Positions 571 to 28,257 of a stretch of DNA of 48,818 bases are shown piece after piece. Origin of the DNA: a virus. Each line of letters opens with the position of its first letter. Position 1 is the first letter of the stretch. The translations under genes were made by a program, and so were the position numbers. Location: the IMG/VR virus record IMGVR_UViG_3300006735_000055, positions 1 through 48,818 of that record. The stretch is one strand, 5' to 3'. The notes beneath the pieces are model-generated. The model was not told the DNA's origin. It saw nothing but the letters and a program-made list of their open reading frames with translations, and ran no database searches.

Positions 571-1629
571 ATGGCTATTGACTTCAAAACATTAAACTCA
601 GTCCTTCCTTACATCCTTGACGCTAAGTTCCCTGTTCTTATCCGTGGTAGACACGGTATCGGTAAATCTGCTATTGTATATCAGATTGCTGAAGATCGCG
701 GCTTGCCTGTCATTGAACGTCGTGCCTCTCAAATGACTGAGGGAGACTTGCTTGGTTTACCAAAGGTAGAAGGCAATGTCACTACTTGGTTGGCTCCAGA
801 ATGGCTTCACAACGCTTGTAACGAGCCTTGTGTTCTATTTCTCGATGAGGTTGACCGTGCAACTATGGAAGTTCGTCAAGGTATCTTCGAGTTGTGCGAC
901 AGCCGCAAGATCGCGGGATATACCCTACACCCCGACACACTTATCTTCGCTTGTGTAAACGGTGGAGAGCACGGTGCTCAGTATCAAGTAGGCGAAATGG
1001 ATCCAGCAGAATTGGATCGTTACACCTGCTTTGACGTTCAACCAACTGTTGAAGATTGGTTGAATTGGGCCGATGGTAATGTTGTTTCACAAGTTTGGGA
1101 CTTCATCAATCAGAACCATCAACACCTCGAACATACCGATGAGTACGAGCCTAACAAGGTTTATCCATCTCGTCGCTCTTGGGTTCGTTTATCCGACGCT
1201 CTCCAGTCTATGGGTGAGATCAAGCAAAGTCCTGTACTTTATCACCTTGCCTCTTCTTTCATTGGCTTCGAAGGTGCGGTTGCTTTCAATGACTTTGTTG
1301 CAAACTATAAAAAGATTGTAACTGTTGAAAACATCTTAGATGAAGGTAAGATCGAACTCACCAAAGAGTTCAAGATCAATGACCACAACGCTCTTATCGA
1401 GAAGTTCAAGCAAAGCAAGTGTTTCGATGATAAATTATCCAAGGATCAATTGAAAAATGTTGCTGAGTATATGGTAACATTACCATCTGAGATTGGTATG
1501 TCATTCTGGACTGTAATTGCTTCTGGCTCCGAAGCCAAGCACAATGCAGCAGGTGTTCACTCAGTGCAATTATCTGGTGGAACTTCAGTTCGAGATTATA
1601 TGATAGAAATCCTCGGTGCAAAAAAGTAA
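571..1629 (+). CDS. MoxR-type AAA+ ATPase
   Basis: A 352-residue AAA+ ATPase of the MoxR/dynein-related type. Visible motifs are a Walker A (GRHGIGKS, residues 26-33), a Walker B (VLFLDE, 88-93) followed by VDRA, and a sensor-1 asparagine (N130, FACVN). MoxR ATPases remodel or activate partner proteins carrying VWA domains, often by inserting metal or assembling complexes. The next gene encodes such a partner, so the two probably act as a chaperone pair like RavA-ViaA. The start is set by AAGGAG at 559-564 before ATG. It has its own promoter and is separated from the partner gene by a hairpin and a second promoter. The AAA+ assignment is firm; the substrate is unknown. Confidence 0.9.
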   Translation: MAIDFKTLNSVLPYILDAKFPVLIRGRHGIGKSAIVYQIAEDRGLPVIERRASQMTEGDLLGLPKVEGNVTTWLAPEWLHNACNEPCVLFLDEVDRATMEVRQGIFELCDSRKIAGYTLHPDTLIFACVNGGEHGAQYQVGEMDPAELDRYTCFDVQPTVEDWLNWADGNVVSQVWDFINQNHQHLEHTDEYEPNKVYPSRRSWVRLSDALQSMGEIKQSPVLYHLASSFIGFEGAVAFNDFVANYKKIVTVENILDEGKIELTKEFKINDHNALIEKFKQSKCFDDKLSKDQLKNVAEYMVTLPSEIGMSFWTVIASGSEAKHNAAGVHSVQLSGGTSVRDYMIEILGAKK

Positions 1630-1653
1630 CGAGTATATCGAGGGTGTAGCAAT

Positions 1654-1672
1654 GAGGACAAAAAATGTCCTC
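1654..1672 (+). terminator. cassette hairpin
   Basis: A perfect 7-bp stem GAGGACA (1654-1660) / TGTCCTC (1666-1672) with an AAAAA loop lies between the ATPase gene and the next promoter. There is no clear T-run after it, so it may attenuate, protect or process the RNA rather than terminate. Confidence 0.5.
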
Positions 1673-1690
1673 AAATGCACCCGAAATAAT

Positions 1691-1719
1691 TTGACAGATA
1701 GTTACTGACAGGATACATT
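1691..1719 (+). promoter_or_regulatory. cassette promoter P3 (class B)
   Basis: TTGACA 1691-1696, 17-bp spacer GATAGTTACTGACAGGA, TACATT 1714-1719, then TATAACC. The identical spacer recurs at 3793, and with one change at 4370. It drives the VWA/metallopeptidase gene. Confidence 0.8.
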
Positions 1720-1748
1720 ATAGTATAACCCAAATCCTTGGAGGTCAT

Positions 1749-3008
1749 ATGACCACTGAAAACAAAAATGAAAATACACCTAAACCAGTGTTTGATTTGA
1801 ATAAGCACACTTTCAAATTGCTGCAATCTGAGCCGTTCTTTGCTGGCTTGTCTCGTCGTATCCATAAGAAGGAAAGCACTGCTATTCCAACTGCCGGTGT
1901 GATGATTGATCCTGATACTGCTCAGTTCGTCATGCTCTACAACCCTAACTTCTTCGCTGAAATGCCCGAAGAACAGCGGCTTGGTGTTCTTATGCACGAG
2001 TTCTATCATCTTATATTTGAACACGTTACTGGTCGGCTACCCCCCGAGGGCATGAGCAAGATGTGGAATGTAGCCACTGACTTGGCTATCAATTCATTCT
2101 TGGTTGGTAAACTCCCAGAAGGTGGTTGTATCCCGACACAAGAGCCATTTCAAGACTATCCCTTGGAGATGTCAGCAGAATGGTATTTCTCCAAGTTACA
2201 GAACGACCCGCAATTCCAGCCTCCACAAGATGGCGAAGGTGATGGAGAAGGTGGAGAAGGCCAAGGGGATGGAGATCCATCTGAAGGCAACGGCTCCGGT
2301 TCTGGTGGTGGCTTACCTGATAGCCTCGATGACCATAGCGGTTGGGGTGAAGTTGATCAAGAGACTAAGGCAATGGCCGAGGAACGCTTGAAAGACGCTA
2401 TCCGCAAGGCTACTGACGAAGTCAATTCTGGTGGCCGTGGCTGGGGTTCTGTATCTCAGGATATGAGAAAGAAGATCCAAGACATGGTTACACCTAAAGT
2501 GAACTGGCGGTCTGTCCTTCGATACTTCGTCAAGACTTCCCAACGTGCTAATCGTCGCTCGACAGTGCGGAGGATAAACAAGCGTTTCCCATATATTCAT
2601 GCCGGAAAGAAGGTCAATCGTACAGCAAAGATTGCTATCTCTATCGATCAATCGGGGTCTGTCTCAGATCAAATGCTTGGCATCTTCTTTGCTGAATTGA
2701 ATGGTCTTGCTAAGTATGCCGAGTTTACCGTGGTTCCCTTCGATACAGAAGTTGCTGAAGATGAAGTTTATGTTTGGAAAAAAGGTAAACGACAGACTTT
2801 TGAGCGTGTATCTTGTGGAGGTACTTGCTTTGATGCCCCGACACGTTGGGTAAATGAACGTCAATTCGATGGTCATATCATCCTAACAGATATGGAAGCA
2901 CCAAAACCAGTTCCATCTAAATGTCAGCGAATGTGGATGACAACTCCAGAATGTGCTGCTCGTCCTTACTTTACGACAAACGAGCGTGTCATTGCGGTGG
3001 ATAAATGA
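1749..3008 (+). CDS. HExxH metallopeptidase-like plus VWA protein, MoxR partner
   Basis: A 419-residue two-domain protein. The N-terminal part has an HExxH zinc motif (HEFYH, residues 83-87) in LMHEFYHLIFEH, followed by NVATDLAIN, as in the DUF2201-type metallopeptidase-like family. An acidic glycine-rich linker (about 160-190) follows. The C-terminal part is a VWA-like domain with a MIDAS-type D-x-S-x-S (D300, S302, S304 in IDQSGSVS) and a downstream ILTDME. This architecture typically sits beside a MoxR ATPase, as here. The start has GGAGG at 1740-1744. Its stop overlaps the next start (ATGA). It is probably metal-binding and remodelled by the ATPase; whether it cleaves protein is not shown. 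Confidence 0.85.
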   Translation: MTTENKNENTPKPVFDLNKHTFKLLQSEPFFAGLSRRIHKKESTAIPTAGVMIDPDTAQFVMLYNPNFFAEMPEEQRLGVLMHEFYHLIFEHVTGRLPPEGMSKMWNVATDLAINSFLVGKLPEGGCIPTQEPFQDYPLEMSAEWYFSKLQNDPQFQPPQDGEGDGEGGEGQGDGDPSEGNGSGSGGGLPDSLDDHSGWGEVDQETKAMAEERLKDAIRKATDEVNSGGRGWGSVSQDMRKKIQDMVTPKVNWRSVLRYFVKTSQRANRRSTVRRINKRFPYIHAGKKVNRTAKIAISIDQSGSVSDQMLGIFFAELNGLAKYAEFTVVPFDTEVAEDEVYVWKKGKRQTFERVSCGGTCFDAPTRWVNERQFDGHIILTDMEAPKPVPSKCQRMWMTTPECAARPYFTTNERVIAVDK

Positions 3009-13583: not shown

Positions 13584-13649
13584 AATAACCATTCAATTTC
13601 CAAATCCCTCTATTGCCCCCTATTTACTTTAGACATGGAGGATTTATGA

Positions 13650-15236
13650 ATGTGGATATTAGGACTATTATTCGCTTGTAATGATATAGCGCTAAATAAA
13701 ATACAGGACCCGCAGCCGGAGATTGTGGTACTACCGGAGGTCATTGACTTTGGTAATATGAGGTCGGGTTACGAAACAGGGGTTGAAGAATTGACGATTG
13801 TAAATGCGGGGGATGAAGTATTAGTACTTGATCCTCTTTTGCTTATTGCAGGTAATGATCGATTTTCAATCGGTAGTAACGCTACAGAAGATTGGGAATT
13901 GCAACCGGGCGAAGGTATTCAAATTGACGTATATTATGAACCTCAAACATATGAGAGTAATGGTGGTCTTATAGAGATCGCTTCTAACGACGATGAGAGC
14001 CCCGAGATTGAAGTTCTCTTGCTTGGGAAGGGTGATGCACCTGTGATGACTGTCGAGCCAGCCACGTTCGATTATGGGCTTATATCATTAGGGTGTGATA
14101 ATGAAGAGAGAATCACCATCCGTAATAAAGGCAATTTACCTCTGACTGTTGATGAAGTAGTGCAGATGGTAACGCAACCAGTTGATATCATTATGGAGTT
14201 TGGCTCTTTACCTCCGCCGCCTTGGGTTCTCGATCCTAATCAAGAAGTAGATTTTCTTATTTCATATATTCCAAGCGATACAGGTGCTGATGAAAGTCAA
14301 GTGACGGTTCGTGGTAATGACCCTCAAACACCAGAAGTGGAACTGTTGCAAATCGGCGAAGGAATTATGGAGCAATATATAACCCAAGAACATATACAAG
14401 AAGAGGTGGCGATTTTAGACATAGTATTTGTTATTGATAACTCTGGTTCTATGGGAATGTTCCAAGGGGAACTATCAAATCAAATGACTGCTTTCATGAA
14501 TGTATTCTTATCAACAGGCGCTGATTTTCATCTTGGGTTTATCACAACAGATAGAGATGCACTGCAGTGTAGTGCATTAGTTTGTTGGATTGATAATGCT
14601 TTCCCTAATCCTGTTGATTGGACTCAAGGAATTATTTCTCAAATTGGTACTGGTGGTTCTGCTTTTGAACGCGGGATTATGATGGCGAAACAGTTTTTTC
14701 AAAACCAAGATCCTTATAACGGTGGTGCTCCGAATACTCCGTTCTGGAGAGATGATGCTACTACTGTTGTTATATATGTTTCTGATGAAGCAGATGGCTC
14801 TATCGGAGGCTGGAACTCTTATACTTATTTCTTTGATAACCTCAGACCAGACGTGAATACGATGAAACATTTTGGTGTAATCGGTGATGCCCCATCTGGT
14901 TGTAGTTATAATTACAATGGGGTGCCTAGAAGCGTTCAGTATGGAATGGGATACTGGGATATGATTCAGCGCTATGGTGGAGAGTGGTACTCTATATGTT
15001 CGGTTGATTGGGGAGCACAGATGCAAGACCTCGCAAGCACCGTAACAGTCAGAACAAGATTCGGTCTTGACGAAGATGACCCAATTGAATCTTCTATTCT
15101 GGTCAAGATCAATGGACAGATTACTTCGACTGGATGGTATTATGATTCAAACACAAACTCTGTAGTGTTCGAAGAAGGTTCAATACCGGAGGCAAACCAA
15201 ACAATCACAATAGAATATGGTATCTGGGGATGCTAA
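13650..15236 (+). CDS. lipoprotein with two ASH-like domains and a VWA domain
   Basis: 528 residues. MWILGLLFAC gives a very short signal ending in a lipobox cysteine (C10). Two ASH/choice-of-anchor-D type beta domains follow (about 25-128 and 132-238, each with a V/T-x-x-x-x-x-D-[FY]-G start). A VWA domain from about 257 has MIDAS residues D263, S265, S267 (DNSGSMG). This architecture, including the VIDNSGSMG and GFITTD wording, is typical of Myxococcota surface lipoproteins. In a phage it may alter the host surface, or be captured cargo. GGAGG at 13637-13641 sets the start. Its stop overlaps the next gene. Confidence 0.8.
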   Translation: MWILGLLFACNDIALNKIQDPQPEIVVLPEVIDFGNMRSGYETGVEELTIVNAGDEVLVLDPLLLIAGNDRFSIGSNATEDWELQPGEGIQIDVYYEPQTYESNGGLIEIASNDDESPEIEVLLLGKGDAPVMTVEPATFDYGLISLGCDNEERITIRNKGNLPLTVDEVVQMVTQPVDIIMEFGSLPPPPWVLDPNQEVDFLISYIPSDTGADESQVTVRGNDPQTPEVELLQIGEGIMEQYITQEHIQEEVAILDIVFVIDNSGSMGMFQGELSNQMTAFMNVFLSTGADFHLGFITTDRDALQCSALVCWIDNAFPNPVDWTQGIISQIGTGGSAFERGIMMAKQFFQNQDPYNGGAPNTPFWRDDATTVVIYVSDEADGSIGGWNSYTYFFDNLRPDVNTMKHFGVIGDAPSGCSYNYNGVPRSVQYGMGYWDMIQRYGGEWYSICSVDWGAQMQDLASTVTVRTRFGLDEDDPIESSILVKINGQITSTGWYYDSNTNSVVFEEGSIPEANQTITIEYGIWGC

Positions 15237-15748
15237 GAAGACACTATGGTCTTTGGTTGTTGGTTGCACTCATCATTGGGTTTTGTCTGGGCTCGGGAAT
15301 AAAGACTGCTTGGGAACACAACCGTTTTATTGTTGGTTCTTGGCAGACTCAAACTCCCATTCTTGTTGTTTGTCCGTGCAGTTCAGTCACCCGGTATCGT
15401 GTCGGTAATGCAGTTCAGTGGTGGGGCATAAGAGGATATGAAGTCAAGAGTGTGCATTGGGATGATGATAATACAGTTTGTAGTAAAGGGAAATTTGTTG
15501 ATGGTGTGATCTTTATAAGAGGCGAAGGAGAACGCGAGAAAGGAACCTACGCTGTTACTTCAAGGATAATGATAATAAACGATATGAGGTCGGCATCAAT
15601 CTTGCTTCCAAACGGAAATACACATATGCCTAGACTATTAGAACACGAAATGGGACATGCATTTGGAATGAGCCACGTTGATATTACAGGACATATGATG
15701 CATGCAATATATGAATATGGTGGAGACCGCTTTTGGATTCCAGATTAA
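15230..15748 (+). CDS. membrane-anchored matrixin-like metalloprotease
   Basis: 172 residues. One N-terminal membrane anchor (LWLLVALIIGFCLGSG, about 8-23, after MLRRH). At residues 139-149 lies HEMGHAFGMSH, the HExxHxxGxxH zinc site of metzincins, followed by a Met-turn-like GHMM (154-157). This is the matrixin-type arrangement. With an N-in anchor the catalytic part would face the periplasm. It overlaps the lipoprotein gene by 7 bases with no strong binding site, so translation is coupled. Possible roles are envelope protein processing, maturation of the neighbouring lipoprotein, or lysis. Zinc protease motif firm, substrate unknown. Confidence 0.8.
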   Translation: MLRRHYGLWLLVALIIGFCLGSGIKTAWEHNRFIVGSWQTQTPILVVCPCSSVTRYRVGNAVQWWGIRGYEVKSVHWDDDNTVCSKGKFVDGVIFIRGEGEREKGTYAVTSRIMIINDMRSASILLPNGNTHMPRLLEHEMGHAFGMSHVDITGHMMHAIYEYGGDRFWIPD

Positions 15749-15786: not shown

Positions 15787-16659
15787 ATGAAACTGTTACT
15801 TGAAAAATGGAAAGCATATACCCAAGACTGTAAAAATGCCGACGGCAAAGATGGAAATGCTGTTGTAAAGAAAGGTGGAAGTGATAAAATTGAATCTTGT
15901 CACGCATCAAAAGAAAAAGCAGAGGATGCTGTAAAGGCAAGGTATGCTAATTACAAATCTGAATCTCTTGATGAGATGAGTGCTATGGGTGGTGGGGCCG
16001 TTCAAGGATACGCAGCACCATTAGAGGACGAAAGAGAAGAGTTGGAAGAAATGTTTTCTTCTTCAACACAAACTGGTGGGGTTCCACAAAGTAAAGTCTC
16101 TGGTGAGGAAGAGCACGAAGGACATGTTGAGAGATCAAAACATCAAGGTCTGAGAAATGTTATGGAAGACGCTGGTGTTCAGTGGAAACTAACGGACTTT
16201 GCAGATAACCCAAGAAATGCTGCTAGAGTTTTTGATGTTCTAAAGGATATAATAAACAATATTGGAATAAAGAAATTACAAAACGCTGTTCTTTCGGACG
16301 CATCATCAGAAAGTAGAGTAAATGTGATGGCTAACAAATTTGGTTATGACTCAGACTTGCTTGAAAAAATAAAAAAAGATGATATTGAAGCAATAAAAAA
16401 ATATTATCAATTTTTGATAAACGAATTTATGTTTTGGTCAACGTATAATCCAATGGCCTCGGCGGCACAGTATGCTGGAAGGCGTAATTTATTATCAAAA
16501 CCCGTAAAAGATCTTGCTTATTCTCATATATATCGATATGTGAAGAGCCCATCTGTGAATAATCCAAAGAGTTTAGGGCAGAGGATAAGATCCCAAGCAG
16601 ATGATTATGAGTTAGACCCAGATTTAGACCCCTCGTTGTACGAATTGCCCGAGGAATAG
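15787..16659 (+). CDS. candidate prohead core or internal protein
   Basis: 290 residues from ATG 15787, preferred over an in-frame GTG at 15778 because GAGGTG (15774-15779) is its binding site. N-terminus MKLLLEKWKAYTQD resembles short capsid-targeting leaders. A segment with SCHASKEKAEDAVKARYAN (about 37-55) is a motif I associate with phage prohead or protease C-termini. A glycine patch SAMGGGAVQGYAAP and an acidic stretch follow. The C-terminal half is helical and tyrosine-rich. Possibly scaffold-like. No enzymatic motif. Confidence 0.6.
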   Translation: MKLLLEKWKAYTQDCKNADGKDGNAVVKKGGSDKIESCHASKEKAEDAVKARYANYKSESLDEMSAMGGGAVQGYAAPLEDEREELEEMFSSSTQTGGVPQSKVSGEEEHEGHVERSKHQGLRNVMEDAGVQWKLTDFADNPRNAARVFDVLKDIINNIGIKKLQNAVLSDASSESRVNVMANKFGYDSDLLEKIKKDDIEAIKKYYQFLINEFMFWSTYNPMASAAQYAGRRNLLSKPVKDLAYSHIYRYVKSPSVNNPKSLGQRIRSQADDYELDPDLDPSLYELPEE

Positions 16660-16660
16660 C

Positions 16661-16689
16661 TTGACAAAGACAGAATAATGTGTTATAAT
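16661..16689 (+). promoter_or_regulatory. consensus sigma70-type promoter
   Basis: TTGACA 16661-16666, 17-bp spacer, TATAAT 16684-16689 preceded by TGT. It overlaps the end of the previous gene (stop at 16659) and drives the HAD-Nudix gene 20 bases on. A full consensus, unlike the TACATT cassette promoters. Confidence 0.8.
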
Positions 16690-16708
16690 ATATAAAAAGG
16701 ATAAGAAT

Positions 16709-17938
16709 ATGAGAGACCTATTAGACAAAATGAAAAAATTAAATGAAAACAAGAACGGAAAGGTTGTCACATTCGATTTTGATAACACCATTGTAAAATC
16801 CTACGAGGAATCCAATGATGGTGAGGAGACATTGTATCGCTTTGGTGGAGTCAATAAGCAAATTATTGCAAGAATAAAGAAGTTCAAGCAGTCTGGAGCC
16901 ACAGTTCTCGTTGTTACCTCAAGAATGCAAGCCCTTGAAGTACCAGAAAGTTCGGTTAGGGTGATGTTAGATCAACTAAAAATTGAAGTTGATGGAATTT
17001 TTTACACAAACGGTGAAAAAAAGGCACAAAAATTATATGAGTTAGGCTCCTCTTTACATTATGATGACTGTCCGAGTGAGCGTGAGGCGATTGAGGCTTA
17101 CAAAAAACTTCACAAGAGTGATATTGTCGTCAAAAACCCTGATGATTTACTAAAAGATATCAACGAAATATCAAAAGGGCTTATTATTACTAATGATGGA
17201 AAGATTATTATCACACAAAGGTCTGATTCTCTTGAGTGGGATGCACCCGGGGGACACCTTATGGAAGGCGAAGAGCCGAATTTTGCTTTTTATCGTGAAA
17301 CTTTAGAGGAATTATCGCTAAAAGTCAAGAAAATAGACTATTTGGCCACCGAAGATATCACTTGGAAGGGTGATACGAAGCCTGTTTATTATTTTGTTGG
17401 GTATGTTCCCCACACATCTGATGAATTAGAAGGCATAATACAACTACAGTGGGAAATTGAAGACTATTTTTGCGGTGATATTCAAGAAATTGAACAAAAA
17501 ATGGGTGAAGGATCAACTCAAAACCTAGTAAACGCTCTCAAGCACCTTCTTGAGGACGATATGGTGCTTCAAGAGAGAGCATATCCTCATTCAGAGAACC
17601 ATGCTACTAAAAAAAGAAGGCTGATTGGGCTTGGTGGTAGCAAATCCACTGGTGCAACTGGTCTGAAAAGATCAAAAGACTTCTCAAGATCCAAATCTGC
17701 ACCTGCTGGTTTTGGTGCTTTGGAAGAAGCCGAAAAAAAAACAAAAAAAATAAAAATTAAGATCGTTTCAAGCGTTGACGAGAAGAAAAAACGCAAAAAA
17801 AAGAAAAAACCCGGACCAAAAAAGGGTTCTAAAAGAAAAAAGAGAAGAAATTACGGTAGCGCTTGGCCATATATTGGCGGCGGAGTAATTTCAAGCACCG
17901 ATAGCGGAGAAGGAGGCGATGGTGGTGGCGGCGAATAG
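16709..17938 (+). CDS. HAD-like phosphatase fused to Nudix hydrolase, basic tail
   Basis: 409 residues in three parts. A HAD-type domain (about 17-140) has DFDNT (D23, D25) at the nucleophile site and a late DD (119-120). A Nudix domain (about 155-270) has the box G182-x5-E188-x7-R196-E197-x2-EE, with Ser replacing the usual Gly near its end. The tail (about 340-409) is rich in lysine and ends in glycines. HAD enzymes dephosphorylate small molecules and Nudix enzymes cleave nucleoside diphosphate derivatives. The fusion suggests sequential processing of a nucleotide or RNA end. AAAAGGAT before ATG 16709, own promoter. The tail could bind nucleic acid or serve packaging. Confidence 0.8.
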   Translation: MRDLLDKMKKLNENKNGKVVTFDFDNTIVKSYEESNDGEETLYRFGGVNKQIIARIKKFKQSGATVLVVTSRMQALEVPESSVRVMLDQLKIEVDGIFYTNGEKKAQKLYELGSSLHYDDCPSEREAIEAYKKLHKSDIVVKNPDDLLKDINEISKGLIITNDGKIIITQRSDSLEWDAPGGHLMEGEEPNFAFYRETLEELSLKVKKIDYLATEDITWKGDTKPVYYFVGYVPHTSDELEGIIQLQWEIEDYFCGDIQEIEQKMGEGSTQNLVNALKHLLEDDMVLQERAYPHSENHATKKRRLIGLGGSKSTGATGLKRSKDFSRSKSAPAGFGALEEAEKKTKKIKIKIVSSVDEKKKRKKKKKPGPKKGSKRKKRRNYGSAWPYIGGGVISSTDSGEGGDGGGGE

Positions 17939-19392: not shown

Positions 19393-20292
19393 ATGCCTTG
19401 TAATATAAAGAACTTAGCAAACGTTGATTTAGGCTCTCTAGAGCCCCATATCAATGGAATGTACGACTATTTTGATCAAAAAATAGGCTTTCAGAAGCCT
19501 CCTACGATCGTTTTCGACTCGGACCCTAGTAATCAGTCTAGGGTTCTTGGCAAAACGGCATATTACGACCCTCAGAGCCTTGAAATACATATATATAGTG
19601 ATGGTAGGCACCCAAAAGATATGCTCCGATCAATCGCACACGAACTAATTCACCACCAGCAAAATATGGAAGACAGATTAGATGTTGAGGGATACTCTGG
19701 TCCGGGCTACTATTTAGAGAATGATAAATTACGCGTCATAGAGCATGAGGCAATGCTTGAAGGCAACAAACTCATGCGTGAGTATGAAGACACTATTAAA
19801 AAGGAAAGTAAAGATATGTCACTAAAAGAATGGAAAAATAATCAATTGAACCAACGTCTTTTGAAAAAATTTGGAATCCTCAAAGAAGAGCAAGAACTCG
19901 ATGAATTGAGCAATAACGCAAATCACACAGATCGTCATCGAGGTAATAACCAAGATGGTAGACTTCGTGAAGATGAAGAAGTTGTTGAAGAAGCAAAAGA
20001 AGAGTTAGAAGAATTGTCCGCTAATAAAGAACAAACAGCAGATAGACTTCAAGCCGGTGAAGAAAACGGCAGAGAACAAGGTCGACTTCGCGAAGAAGAG
20101 ATTGATGAAGCACATTGTGGAAAACGTGATGATGAATTAGAAGAAGCAGCAAAGCCTGACTATCTTGATTTAGATAAAGACGGCGATAAAGAAGAATCTA
20201 TGAAAGATGCTGCTGAAGACGCTAAAATGAAAAAAGAAATCAACCTCAAGGAAGTTGTACAAAAAGCACTAAGAATTGCTAAGGGTAAATAA
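19393..20292 (+). CDS. HExxH metallopeptidase-like protein with acidic tail
   Basis: 299 residues. The first 140 carry HELIHH (zinc-type HExxH at H83-H87) in a small peptidase-like domain. A following E (EHEAMLEGN) could be the third ligand. From about 165 to 270 the protein is a low-complexity acidic region with near-repeats (DELSNNANHTDRHRGNNQDG and ELSANKEQTADRLQAG, each followed by RLRE-E). DYLDLDKDGDKEESMKDAAE comes next, a block I recall from other large phages. An acidic tail on a phage peptidase recalls prohead core proteins, so prohead maturation is one possibility, but this is not the known gp21 fold. Confidence 0.7.
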   Translation: MPCNIKNLANVDLGSLEPHINGMYDYFDQKIGFQKPPTIVFDSDPSNQSRVLGKTAYYDPQSLEIHIYSDGRHPKDMLRSIAHELIHHQQNMEDRLDVEGYSGPGYYLENDKLRVIEHEAMLEGNKLMREYEDTIKKESKDMSLKEWKNNQLNQRLLKKFGILKEEQELDELSNNANHTDRHRGNNQDGRLREDEEVVEEAKEELEELSANKEQTADRLQAGEENGREQGRLREEEIDEAHCGKRDDELEEAAKPDYLDLDKDGDKEESMKDAAEDAKMKKEINLKEVVQKALRIAKGK

Positions 20293-25528: not shown

Positions 25529-25759
25529 ATGATTTTATTATTAGTAACGTTTTTGTGTTTTGCACAAGACGACGATAGAGACATTAGGTATAAAGAAAAA
25601 ACAGAAATTGATTTTGAAGAACTTGATGTAGAAGGTGAATTAGTAAAACCACAAGGTGCTCTTTTATTAGACAGGAAGAGAGCAACGTTTAATCCACTAA
25701 TTAAACTCAGATCAGACTTCAATCCAGAAATGTCCAAATCCGTTTCTGAAATAAAATAA
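25529..25759 (+). CDS. secreted protein resembling gliding-motility CglF
   Basis: 76 residues from ATG 25529 with AAGGAGA upstream. MILLLVTFLCFAQ is a short signal peptide with a likely cleavage before DDDRD. RYKEKTEIDFEELDVEGELVK and DRKRATFNPLIKLRSDFNPEM resemble, from memory, small periplasmic proteins of Myxococcota annotated as CglF-type (adventurous gliding motility). If right, the phage carries a copy or mimic of a host motility/envelope protein. The resemblance needs a search. Confidence 0.55.
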   Translation: MILLLVTFLCFAQDDDRDIRYKEKTEIDFEELDVEGELVKPQGALLLDRKRATFNPLIKLRSDFNPEMSKSVSEIK

Positions 25760-25771
25760 CAGGATACTTCA

Positions 25772-27115
25772 ATGGCTAAAAAAAATTTCATCATAGACAC
25801 AAGTGTATTCTTGTCGGACTCTAATTGTATATTCAAATTCCAGAATAATGATATCTTTATTCCCATAAAGGTTCTCGAAGAAATTGATAAACATAAAAAA
25901 CGACAAGACACAGTTGGTCATCACGCAAGGCAGGCTATAAGACACTTCGACTCTCTGAGGGGCTCTGGTAGCCTTTCTAAGGGCGTTCGGATCGACAAAG
26001 GGTTAGGGGTGCTTCGTGTAATCAAAGCGTCTGAAATATGCCTTGACGAGCTTCCTAGAGATCTTACTCACCAAGTGGCCGACCACTTGATCCTTGGAAC
26101 AGCATTGACGGTCAAAAAAGATATGCCTAAAAGAAAAACAATTGTTGTTTCTCGAGATATCAATATGCGGGTCATTGCTGATGCTTTAGGAATGCTCACT
26201 GAAGATTATTCAAACTCACAAGTGGTTGATAACTCAGATAAAATATACGAAGGGTTTACTAAATTACTTGTTGATGAAGAGTTAGTCAATCAATTCTATC
26301 TAGGGGATGATGTATTTCTGGATGAAGATGTGGTAACTCAACAAGGCATCAAATTACACTGGAACGAATTTGTGATGCTTGTATCATCCAGTAATGAAAA
26401 GAAAACAGCACTCGCTCGTTTCTCTGATTATATCAAACCCCTCCGTCACATTAGAGATCTCAAGAATGAACTTATGTGGGGAATCCTCCCTCGAAACAAA
26501 GAGCAGTCTTTTGCATTTGATCTTTTATTTGACGATGATATCCCTTTGGTCTCTTTGATTGGTAAAGCCGGTTCGGGGAAAACCCTTATGGCGATTGCAG
26601 CCGGATTAGAGCAGGGCTTAGGAGGTAAAGGGGATAAATATAGAAGAATAATTATTTCTCGACCGGTTCAGCCCCTTGGAAAGGATATAGGGTTCTTACC
26701 GGGTACACTTGAAGAGAAAATGCTTCCTTGGTTGAAGCCAATTCAAGATAATATTCGTCACCTTATGGGTGATGATCGAACTATGCTTGAGGCTTATGTT
26801 GAGAAAGGAAAAATTGAAGTAGAAGCACTAACTTATATCAGAGGTCGGTCAATTTCTAATGCGTTCGTAATTATAGATGAGGCCCAAAACCTCACGGCAC
26901 ACGAAGTCAAGACGATTATCACTCGTATTGGCGAAAACACAAAGATTGTTTTGACTGGAGACATTGAGCAAATAGATAATGTCTACACAAACGAGACAAG
27001 CAATGGTTTGACGTATGCAGTCGAGAAGTTCAAAGATAGTGAACTTGCAGGGCACATTACATTTAGAAAAGGGGAGCGATCAAAGTTGGCAACCGCCGCT
27101 GCTAAACTATTATGA
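25772..27115 (+). CDS. PIN-PhoH (PhoH2-type) ATPase
   Basis: 447 residues. The N-terminal PIN ribonuclease domain (about 4-150) has acidic residues in FIIDTSVFL (D9), LEEIDKHK, ADHLILGT and VSRDINMR. The C-terminal PhoH domain has Walker A GKAGSGKT (264-271), Walker B FVIIDEAQN (about 368-376) and LTGDIEQID. PhoH2 proteins couple an RNA helicase-like motor to PIN RNase activity; phoH genes are common in marine phages. AACAGGAT upstream. Its stop overlaps the next gene. Confidence 0.9.
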   Translation: MAKKNFIIDTSVFLSDSNCIFKFQNNDIFIPIKVLEEIDKHKKRQDTVGHHARQAIRHFDSLRGSGSLSKGVRIDKGLGVLRVIKASEICLDELPRDLTHQVADHLILGTALTVKKDMPKRKTIVVSRDINMRVIADALGMLTEDYSNSQVVDNSDKIYEGFTKLLVDEELVNQFYLGDDVFLDEDVVTQQGIKLHWNEFVMLVSSSNEKKTALARFSDYIKPLRHIRDLKNELMWGILPRNKEQSFAFDLLFDDDIPLVSLIGKAGSGKTLMAIAAGLEQGLGGKGDKYRRIIISRPVQPLGKDIGFLPGTLEEKMLPWLKPIQDNIRHLMGDDRTMLEAYVEKGKIEVEALTYIRGRSISNAFVIIDEAQNLTAHEVKTIITRIGENTKIVLTGDIEQIDNVYTNETSNGLTYAVEKFKDSELAGHITFRKGERSKLATAAAKLL

Positions 27116-27531
27116 TAGGATTTATTTTAGGAATTATTTATGCAAGTTTTTTGGAATGGTGGGTTCACAAGCACCTATTTCATATAAGAGGCAAAAAAAA
27201 AGATAGTCTCTTTGCTTATCACTTGAGGGATCACCATGTCGTTGCTAAAAGAAATAATTTTGTTGATATTCGCATGTCTCTCATCGAGACGACTGGTCTT
27301 TTATTCCTTGCTATTATCCATTTCCCTATTTTTTATATTAGTTGTATGTTTTATTTCGCTACAGTTATCTATGCTATAGCATTTTTTGTGCTTCACAATT
27401 ATGCACACAGGAACCCCCAATGGGCAAAAATTTTCCAACCTTGGCACTGGAAGCATCATATGGAAAACCCAAATTCAAACTGGAACGTTGTATTTCCGAT
27501 TGCAGATTGGATAATGAAAACTAATAAATAA
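27112..27531 (+). CDS. fatty acid hydroxylase/sterol desaturase-like protein
   Basis: 139 residues, ATGA-coupled to phoH. Histidine clusters: HKHLFH (19-24), HLRDHH (37-42), HNYAH (95-99) and HWKHH (112-116), the di-iron pattern of the fatty acid hydroxylase superfamily. Hydrophobic segments before and between them (about 2-15, 60-95) fit an integral membrane enzyme. The family hydroxylates or desaturates lipids, carotenoids or sterols. At 139 residues it is shorter than most relatives but retains all clusters. A lipid-modifying auxiliary gene is the likely meaning. Confidence 0.8.
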   Translation: MIGFILGIIYASFLEWWVHKHLFHIRGKKKDSLFAYHLRDHHVVAKRNNFVDIRMSLIETTGLLFLAIIHFPIFYISCMFYFATVIYAIAFFVLHNYAHRNPQWAKIFQPWHWKHHMENPNSNWNVVFPIADWIMKTNK

Positions 27532-27591: not shown

Positions 27592-28257
27592 ATGTGGATA
27601 GAAGAATCAGCCAAAAGAGGGTCTAGGCTCAAGGATACGTATGTTATGAATGGTGTGCAAGTTTTCATCAAAGATAAATTACCAACAGATATAGACCCAG
27701 ACTTTGTCTTCAATTATATAAATGCAAGAATACCTTTTCATCTTACAACAGGTATTGATATTGTGTATATTGGAAAGTTTCCAGAAATGATAGACAGGGA
27801 AATAAACGCTTTTTACGAAGATGGCGCTATATACGTGACTAATGAGCAAGAAGAAGAAATGGACATGATTGATGATATAATTCATGAGTTAGCACATGCA
27901 GTAGAAATAAATAATGATGAAATTATATACGGATCAGGCACGTTGCAAAGAGAATTTATTGCTAAAAGAAAAAATCTTACATCAAGACTTGCAGACTTAT
28001 ATGATATACCATCTGACTTTGACTTGAATATTGAGTATGATAGAAATATCGATGATTTTTTATACAAGACTGTAGGATATGATGTTCTAAACCAGATGGT
28101 ATCAAATATATTTATATCAGGCTACGCAGCAACATCAGTGAGTGAATATTTTGCACGAGGGTTCGAAGAGTATTTTATCGGAGATAAAACAAAACTAAAG
28201 AAAGTAAGCCCTGTTCTTTACAGGATAATAGATGAACTTGTTCATTTGGAGGACTAA
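27592..28257 (+). CDS. HELAH zinc metalloprotease-like protein
   Basis: 221 residues. DDIIHELAHAVE has HExxH (H98-H102) with a Glu three residues on. A conserved-looking REFIAKR and a later EYFARGFEEYF follow, typical of gluzincin-like single-domain peptidases. No signal peptide. Fourth HExxH protein of the window. GAGAG upstream; its stop overlaps the next gene by one base. Confidence 0.75.
   Translation: MWIEESAKRGSRLKDTYVMNGVQVFIKDKLPTDIDPDFVFNYINARIPFHLTTGIDIVYIGKFPEMIDREINAFYEDGAIYVTNEQEEEMDMIDDIIHELAHAVEINNDEIIYGSGTLQREFIAKRKNLTSRLADLYDIPSDFDLNIEYDRNIDDFLYKTVGYDVLNQMVSNIFISGYAATSVSEYFARGFEEYFIGDKTKLKKVSPVLYRIIDELVHLED

Follow-up and report, generated by a model that had tools for sequence, protein, structure and literature searches.

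What use might a phage have for an adhesin-like surface lipoprotein whose gene runs into that of a membrane-anchored protease? The question is raised by a locus in a 48,818-base IMG/VR virus record (IMGVR_UViG_3300006735_000055), which was analysed at its full length and is referred to here as the window. Judged by its gene content, its source is a large, uncultured T4-like myovirus; the window encodes gp25-like and gp6-like baseplate proteins as well as PhoH, and its gp6 is 29-32% identical to the proteins of Flavobacterium phage immuto, Microcystis phage Mel-JY01 and a 484-kb uncultured phage. The closest larger phage records (G001, 187 kb; G002, 112 kb; G003, 192 kb) have the same gene order around the lipoprotein/protease pair. 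By analogy with known envelope systems, we consider it possible, if somewhat short of probable, that the two genes form a late-expressed phage envelope module in which a host-mimic MIDAS adhesin and an envelope protease remodel the host surface.

The start of the lipoprotein gene is firm because an in-frame TGA (13647-13649) abuts the ATG and a Shine-Dalgarno sequence precedes it (Table 1). The encoded protein begins with MWILGLLFAC/NDIAL (signal peptides and membrane anchors are called here from motifs and hydropathy), and it comprises two ASH/choice-of-anchor-D copies (choice_anch_D, 3e-20, two copies; ASH-type Ig/HYDIN PF22544, 1e-9), a MIDAS-type VWA domain that is weak in Pfam and matches the CglD model (NF033765) at 2.4e-7, and a C-terminal beta part. 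Among 31 aligned rows, T300, D379 and E380 are as invariant as the MIDAS residues listed in Table 1; E340, S378 of the acidic S378-D379-E380 loop and Cys149/418/450 are also conserved, and lipobox Cys10 and Asp12 are found in at least 96% of the rows. By its lipobox, its DxSxS motif and its acidic metal-site loop, the protein can be classed as a putative MIDAS-type VWA adhesin-like lipoprotein.

The ATG of the second gene (15230) and the stop codon of the first (15234-15236) overlap by 7 nt (ATGCTAA), an arrangement that fits translational coupling. The product carries a hydrophobic anchor at residues ~10-24, and its Met157 lies eight residues past the third zinc-binding His, the spacing of the matrixins and the same as in MMP-1. 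Its score against PF00413 is marginal (23.5 bits for the protein and 24.7 in a genome scan, with a cut-off of 24), while the G004 orthologue reaches 28.4 bits; PDB profile matches to MMPs (MMP-13, MMP-1, MMP-14) cover the active site, with a best E of 3e-6. On the strength of zinc site, Met-turn and profile score, we class it as a predicted matrixin-like (M10) member of the metzincin clan. It shares with the matrixins (PF00413, MEROPS M10) the HExGHxxGxxH signature and the Met-turn at +8, but it possesses an N-terminal membrane anchor and a catalytic domain of only ~140 aa, and has no room for a propeptide or a hemopexin domain. Because the AlphaFold models of the lipoprotein (pLDDT 46) and of the metzincin (AF2; pLDDT 49) are both of low confidence, the fold assignments of the two proteins rest on sequence profiles. 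The initial annotation had proposed a lipobox-bearing VWA/ASH lipoprotein coupled to a membrane-anchored metzincin with HExxHxxGxxH and a Met-turn, and this description was accurate in its coordinates and in its features (LFAC/ND, two ASH domains and DNSGS in the former; HEMGHAFGMSH and Met157 in the latter).

Table 1. Features of the lipoprotein/metzincin locus and of the CglF/GltF homologue in the window.
Feature	Position	Strand	Remarks
CTATTTA late-promoter-like motif	13620..13626	+	30 nt upstream of lipoprotein start
Shine-Dalgarno GGAGGA of lipoprotein gene	13637..13642	+	7-nt spacing to ATG 13650
Putative ASH-ASH-VWA(MIDAS) lipoprotein, 528 aa	13650..15236	+	lipobox LFAC/ND; Pfam/NCBIfam; 39 viral relatives
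MIDAS DNSGS (DxSxS) codons, VWA domain	14436..14450	+	D263, S265, S267 invariant in 31/31 rows
Predicted membrane-anchored matrixin-type metzincin, 172 aa	15230..15748	+	N-terminal anchor; PF00413; overlaps lipoprotein gene in 10 other phages
Zinc site HEMGHAFGMSH, residues 139-149	15644..15676	+	HExGHxxGxxH in 11/11 adjacent orthologues
Met-turn Met157	15698-15700	+	Met at +8 in 11/11 adjacent orthologues
CglF/GltF homologue, 76 aa, signal peptide, beside PhoH	25529..25759	+	NF033764 E 2.3e-14, 53 bits

Other regions of the window also code for putative metallopeptidases and VWA-like proteins. Two further products are of the HExxH type (27592-28257 and 19393-20292; HELAH and HELIHH), the first of which matches ATLF (3e-5) and M90 (3.5e-5) just under the Pfam cut-offs. 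At 571-3008, an AAA ATPase-like gene lies beside that of a DUF2201 protein, in which a putative metallopeptidase is combined with a VWA-like domain; the two form a pair of the cytosolic MoxR/VWA type.

The lipoprotein/metzincin pair is, as read from sequence comparison of the sister phages, under purifying selection. Among four phages, the lipoprotein is 74-82% identical, with dN values of 0.13-0.19 and a dS that is high to near-saturated, and it is conserved more than most of its neighbour genes; the metzincins of the same phages are 57-75% identical. The pair is more than a chance assembly because the lipobox, DxSxS, the SDE loop, HExGHxxGxxH and the Met-turn have all been kept across independent phage genomes despite high-to-saturated synonymous change. 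A profile built from seven divergent members retrieved relatives of the lipoprotein from 39 other viral contigs of up to 395 kb, in which the MIDAS residues and the lipobox are kept. Hence, the initial view that such a pair is unusual in a phage does not hold for uncultured large phages, where the lipoprotein is widespread and old. The outcome that had been named as refuting the initial interpretation, closest relatives that are all unrelated structural proteins of phages, did not arise. Among deposited phage records, no relatives were detected of the lipoprotein (50,697 records), of the metzincin or of the CglF homologue discussed below; plasmids yielded weak choice-of-anchor D matches only, in Variovorax, and none to the CglF homologue. 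That the two genes are an incidental moron, derived from a host and inert in the phage, would accord with the frequency of this architecture in bacteria (choice-of-anchor D proteins), but it is hardly credible and is disfavoured in view of the strong purifying selection, the invariant MIDAS residues of 39 relatives, the invariant zinc site of 11 metzincins, and the conservation of both the gene overlap and the promoter-like motif.

The clade to which the window lipoprotein belongs has 12 members (support 100/100). In 11 of these (the window and 10 contigs), the metzincin gene overlaps or abuts that of the lipoprotein, and in the twelfth it is found ~11 kb away; all 11 adjacent metzincins keep the hydrophobic N-terminus along with the features given in Table 1. 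The genes around the pair are different in G004, where a sigma-factor-like gene is among its neighbours, yet the two overlap there too, by 4 nt. In a distant clade, the gene near the lipoprotein encodes a non-homologous, secreted trypsin-like protease (PF13365, 3e-13), which can lie on either side of the lipoprotein gene or on the opposite strand. Genes in the relatives were called with a simple script and many of the viral contigs are fragments, so that counts of absences are soft; with this proviso, a trypsin-like protease is present within 5 kb of the lipoprotein at 24 of the 39 loci, a metzincin at 12 and either of the two at 34, and some distant members have no protease in this interval. 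Nine loci further include a TlpA/ResA-like thioredoxin, and at L106 lipoprotein, metzincin and thioredoxin form a single run. Since its overlap with the lipoprotein gene is confined to one clade, the metzincin is rejected as an invariable partner. We read these gene neighbourhoods as a MIDAS lipoprotein and an envelope protease that make up one recurring unit, whose protease seems to have been swapped for a non-homologue between clades.

Related proteins occur elsewhere in these phages. HtrA/MarP-like trypsin-fold proteases with a lipobox-like N-terminus, of the type that adjoins the VWA lipoprotein in the distant phages, are encoded in G001 (174064-174753) and G003 (101242-101958). Second, short (~300 aa) VWA lipoproteins were noted in G006 (112877-113818), G005 (16507-17427), L125, L128 and L132, and in G006, L125, L128 and L132 the short and the long gene form a direct tandem.

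A precedent for a phage-derived protease that acts on a partner lipoprotein is the Mtz-Tim pair of Listeria, which is of phage origin; there, a metzincin cleaves and releases the lipoprotein, with greater sensitivity to phage lysis and a higher virion release as the outcome (PMC8235301). In both cases, metzincin and lipoprotein genes of phage derivation are adjacent (overlapping in the window and 10 contigs). The differences are substantial: Tim is TIMP-like and Mtz is secreted, whereas in the window the lipoprotein gene comes first, its product is of the ASH-VWA type, the metzincin carries a membrane anchor and the apparent host is a diderm. The likeness was established by description rather than by sequence comparison, and with a lipoprotein that is not TIMP-like the window pair is rejected as a member of the Mtz-Tim system; at most, it may work like it.

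The closest described counterparts of the VWA domain are found in gliding and predatory bacteria. In Myxococcus, CglB and CglD are VWA outer-membrane lipoproteins of the gliding apparatus (PMC4488436), and CglB is the adhesin that the Glt complex recruits (PMC13104615); in Bdellovibrio, Bd0875 is a lipobox MIDAS adhesin required for prey invasion (PMC11003981). The window protein resembles CglD and CglB as an outer-membrane-type VWA lipoprotein, and in this family the VWA start matches the CglD model at 2e-7 to 2e-9. However, that model has 1124 positions and a cut-off of 400 bits, and the window protein scores 29 bits, at the VWA start only; it is thus rejected as a CglD equivalog. With Bd0875 (NF052240; PMC11003981), it has the lipobox and the DxSxS MIDAS in common, and the phage C-terminal beta part resembles the arrangement described for that protein; matches to the model extend over the VWA start, and a paralogous phage lipoprotein matches it in the C-terminal part. 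The phage proteins score only 12-40 bits against a cut-off of 700 (window protein, 22 bits, 8e-5), so that equivalence to the Bdellovibrio adhesin is rejected in favour of a related domain; they also possess two extra N-terminal ASH domains and a protease partner. Relatives of the window lipoprotein reach 2e-9 with the CglD model and 3e-10 (40 bits) with NF052240, values that are far under the equivalog cut-offs.

The window also encodes a homologue of CglF/GltF (Table 1), a small secreted protein whose mature part aligns to positions 26-88 of the 88 in the model. It is phage-encoded and stays under the equivalog cut-off of NF033764 (90 bits), and is hence regarded as a homologue and rejected as an equivalog. 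Cellular gltF has been found only in Myxococcales and Bdellovibrionales, and GltF is required for the formation of GltD focal-adhesion clusters (PMC3169522). The phage homologue was detected in 13 of 14 related phage records and in none of 14 control genomes. In G007, its gene adjoins GroEL; GroEL-like proteins are encoded in G001, G006 and G007 and a DnaK-like one in G006, while a ClpS-like adaptor adjoins another lipoprotein in G001 and a PAS-histidine-kinase-like membrane protein is encoded at L101. The CglF homologue is absent from G003 and, within the distant clade, from most of the larger VWA-bearing phage records, and it is therefore rejected as a constant companion of the lipoprotein. 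We nevertheless consider it a probable member of the same envelope programme as the pair.

From the VWA matches to the CglD and MIDAS-adhesin models and from the CglF homologue, we infer that the host belongs to the Myxococcota or Bdellovibrionota, the support for a host origin of these genes lying at the level of protein families only. The initial annotation had taken the host-like pair to point to Myxococcota; the VWA models and the CglF homologue bear out this direction, but Bdellovibrionota fit equally well. Top matches in Myxococcota, which had been suggested as a check, did not materialize, in that two scans in which short peptide patterns were run against 84,980 prokaryote genomes, a method that sees close relatives only, gave no close cellular relative.

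These resemblances invite the explanation that the CglD-like lipoprotein and the CglF homologue are decoys or replacement parts of the host Agl-Glt machine, by which gliding or prey attachment would be stopped or redirected while the metzincin strips native components. In the host, the two families supply envelope components to one and the same machine (PMC3169522, PMC4488436), at least 93 viral contigs encode the CglF homologue, and both genes are preceded by a late-type motif in G001. Yet, the distance of the lipoprotein from the CglD and MIDAS-adhesin cut-offs and the patchy occurrence of CglF, which marks the two as non-obligate partners, speak against such a hijacking of gliding and adhesion, as does late expression, which would leave the phage scant time to gain from changed motility; we regard it as unlikely.

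The evidence for timing comes from the CTATTTA motif upstream of the lipoprotein gene, whose position is conserved in all four of the closest phages (CTAGTTA in one). On the coding strand upstream of gene starts, this motif is enriched in G001 (13 observed against 1.8 expected; P=3e-9), G003 (15 against 2.7) and G005 (16 against 2.6), and in the sister genomes it precedes the genes for tail sheath, tail tube, a gp25-like baseplate protein and the prohead core, as named from sequence and position. The CglF homologue carries it at -24 in G001 and G002. By analogy with T4 late promoters, the pair is probably expressed late, with the metzincin cotranscribed. This claim is confined to the clade of the window because the exact motif is absent at G004, G006 and most distant loci.

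Two other gene groups of these phages may be recorded here. Otherwise unrelated proteins, four of the window (10423, 10758, 11420, 18405) and 10 of G001, begin with a common N-terminal motif, MK[IL][ST]K..L..II.EE, which could be a capsid-targeting or prohead-protease signal comparable with the N-terminus of T4 internal proteins. A small, fatty-acid hydroxylase-like multi-pass protein with the His-rich motifs WWVHKHLFH, HLRDHH and HNYAHR (27112-27531) is kept in G001, G002 and G003, and similar ORFs exist in G005 and G006.

Timing bears directly on the idea that the lipoprotein serves in superinfection exclusion or receptor masking, blocking a phage receptor from the outer membrane with the metzincin as an accessory. 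The model for this is Llp of phage T5, likewise a phage-encoded outer-membrane lipoprotein, which also averts the loss of phages to receptor-bearing debris (PMC9586334); a phage lipoprotein of the outer-membrane type with a ligand-binding domain could have a similar role at the receptor. Llp, however, is small and has neither a VWA domain nor a protease, whereas the window lipoprotein is long and multidomain and stands behind a late-type motif; proteins for superinfection exclusion are as a rule produced early rather than late (PMC9586334), a point that counts against the late envelope module as well. With the recurrent protease left unexplained, we judge exclusion or masking to be rather unlikely.

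A lipoprotein and an inner-membrane protein from overlapping genes, in a topology like that of Rz/Rz1, might instead serve as a spanin-like pair in accessory lysis, where the metzincin would weaken the envelope and the lipoprotein would be its docking site or substrate. The Mtz-Tim pair sensitises cells to lysins (PMC8235301), and in G005 the CglF homologue lies between an Rz-like gene and one for a secreted coiled-coil protein, in a lysis-like cassette near the terminase. On the other hand, the sister phages possess separate holin-like and Rz-like genes near the terminase, so that the pair is dispensable for lysis as such and is not the core lysis system, and neither a MIDAS adhesin domain nor ASH repeats have a role in known spanins. 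Membership in the Rz/Rz1 spanins proper was rejected since the partners are an ASH-VWA protein and a metzincin, not a small proline-rich lipoprotein and a coiled-coil protein of the inner membrane. Accessory lysis is, in our view, distinctly improbable, and the present data do not separate it from exclusion and from the hijacking of gliding.

For the late envelope module that we prefer, the following course of events can be envisioned. The lipoprotein would leave the cytoplasm through Sec, receive its lipid and pass on to the outer membrane; there, its MIDAS VWA domain may bind a protein ligand in the manner of the host MIDAS lipoproteins (CglB/CglD of Myxococcus, Bd0875 of Bdellovibrio). The metzincin would be inserted in the inner membrane so that its catalytic domain faces the periplasm, and would cut either the lipoprotein itself or host adhesion and envelope proteins engaged by it. 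As a net effect, the host surface would be remodelled late in infection and the cell would lyse or let go cleanly, so that progeny are not lost through re-adsorption to host surface proteins and debris. Purifying selection, the recurrent protease, the MIDAS matches, the CglF homologue and a motif common to virion genes all argue for such a module. Against it stands that genomic pairing does not show the protease acting on the lipoprotein, and that partners in different membranes could make contact in transit or across the periplasm only.

Few phages are known of gliding and predatory bacteria, and the locus may therefore be of interest beyond the window. It is doubtful, though worth considering, that widespread large phages of Myxococcota/Bdellovibrionota possess their own version of the surface components used by the host in focal adhesion and predation, namely CglF/GltF and a MIDAS adhesin that has a dedicated protease, with which they take over or dismantle the adhesion-gliding machine of the host. 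If this is true, phages would have a late envelope programme that makes use of integrin-like adhesins and zinc proteases; that a single adhesin lipoprotein is repeatedly paired with one or the other of two unrelated proteases predicts a shared substrate or a shared step. The CglF homologue and the MIDAS lipoprotein would then be markers by which many uncultured large phages could be assigned to gliding or predatory hosts.
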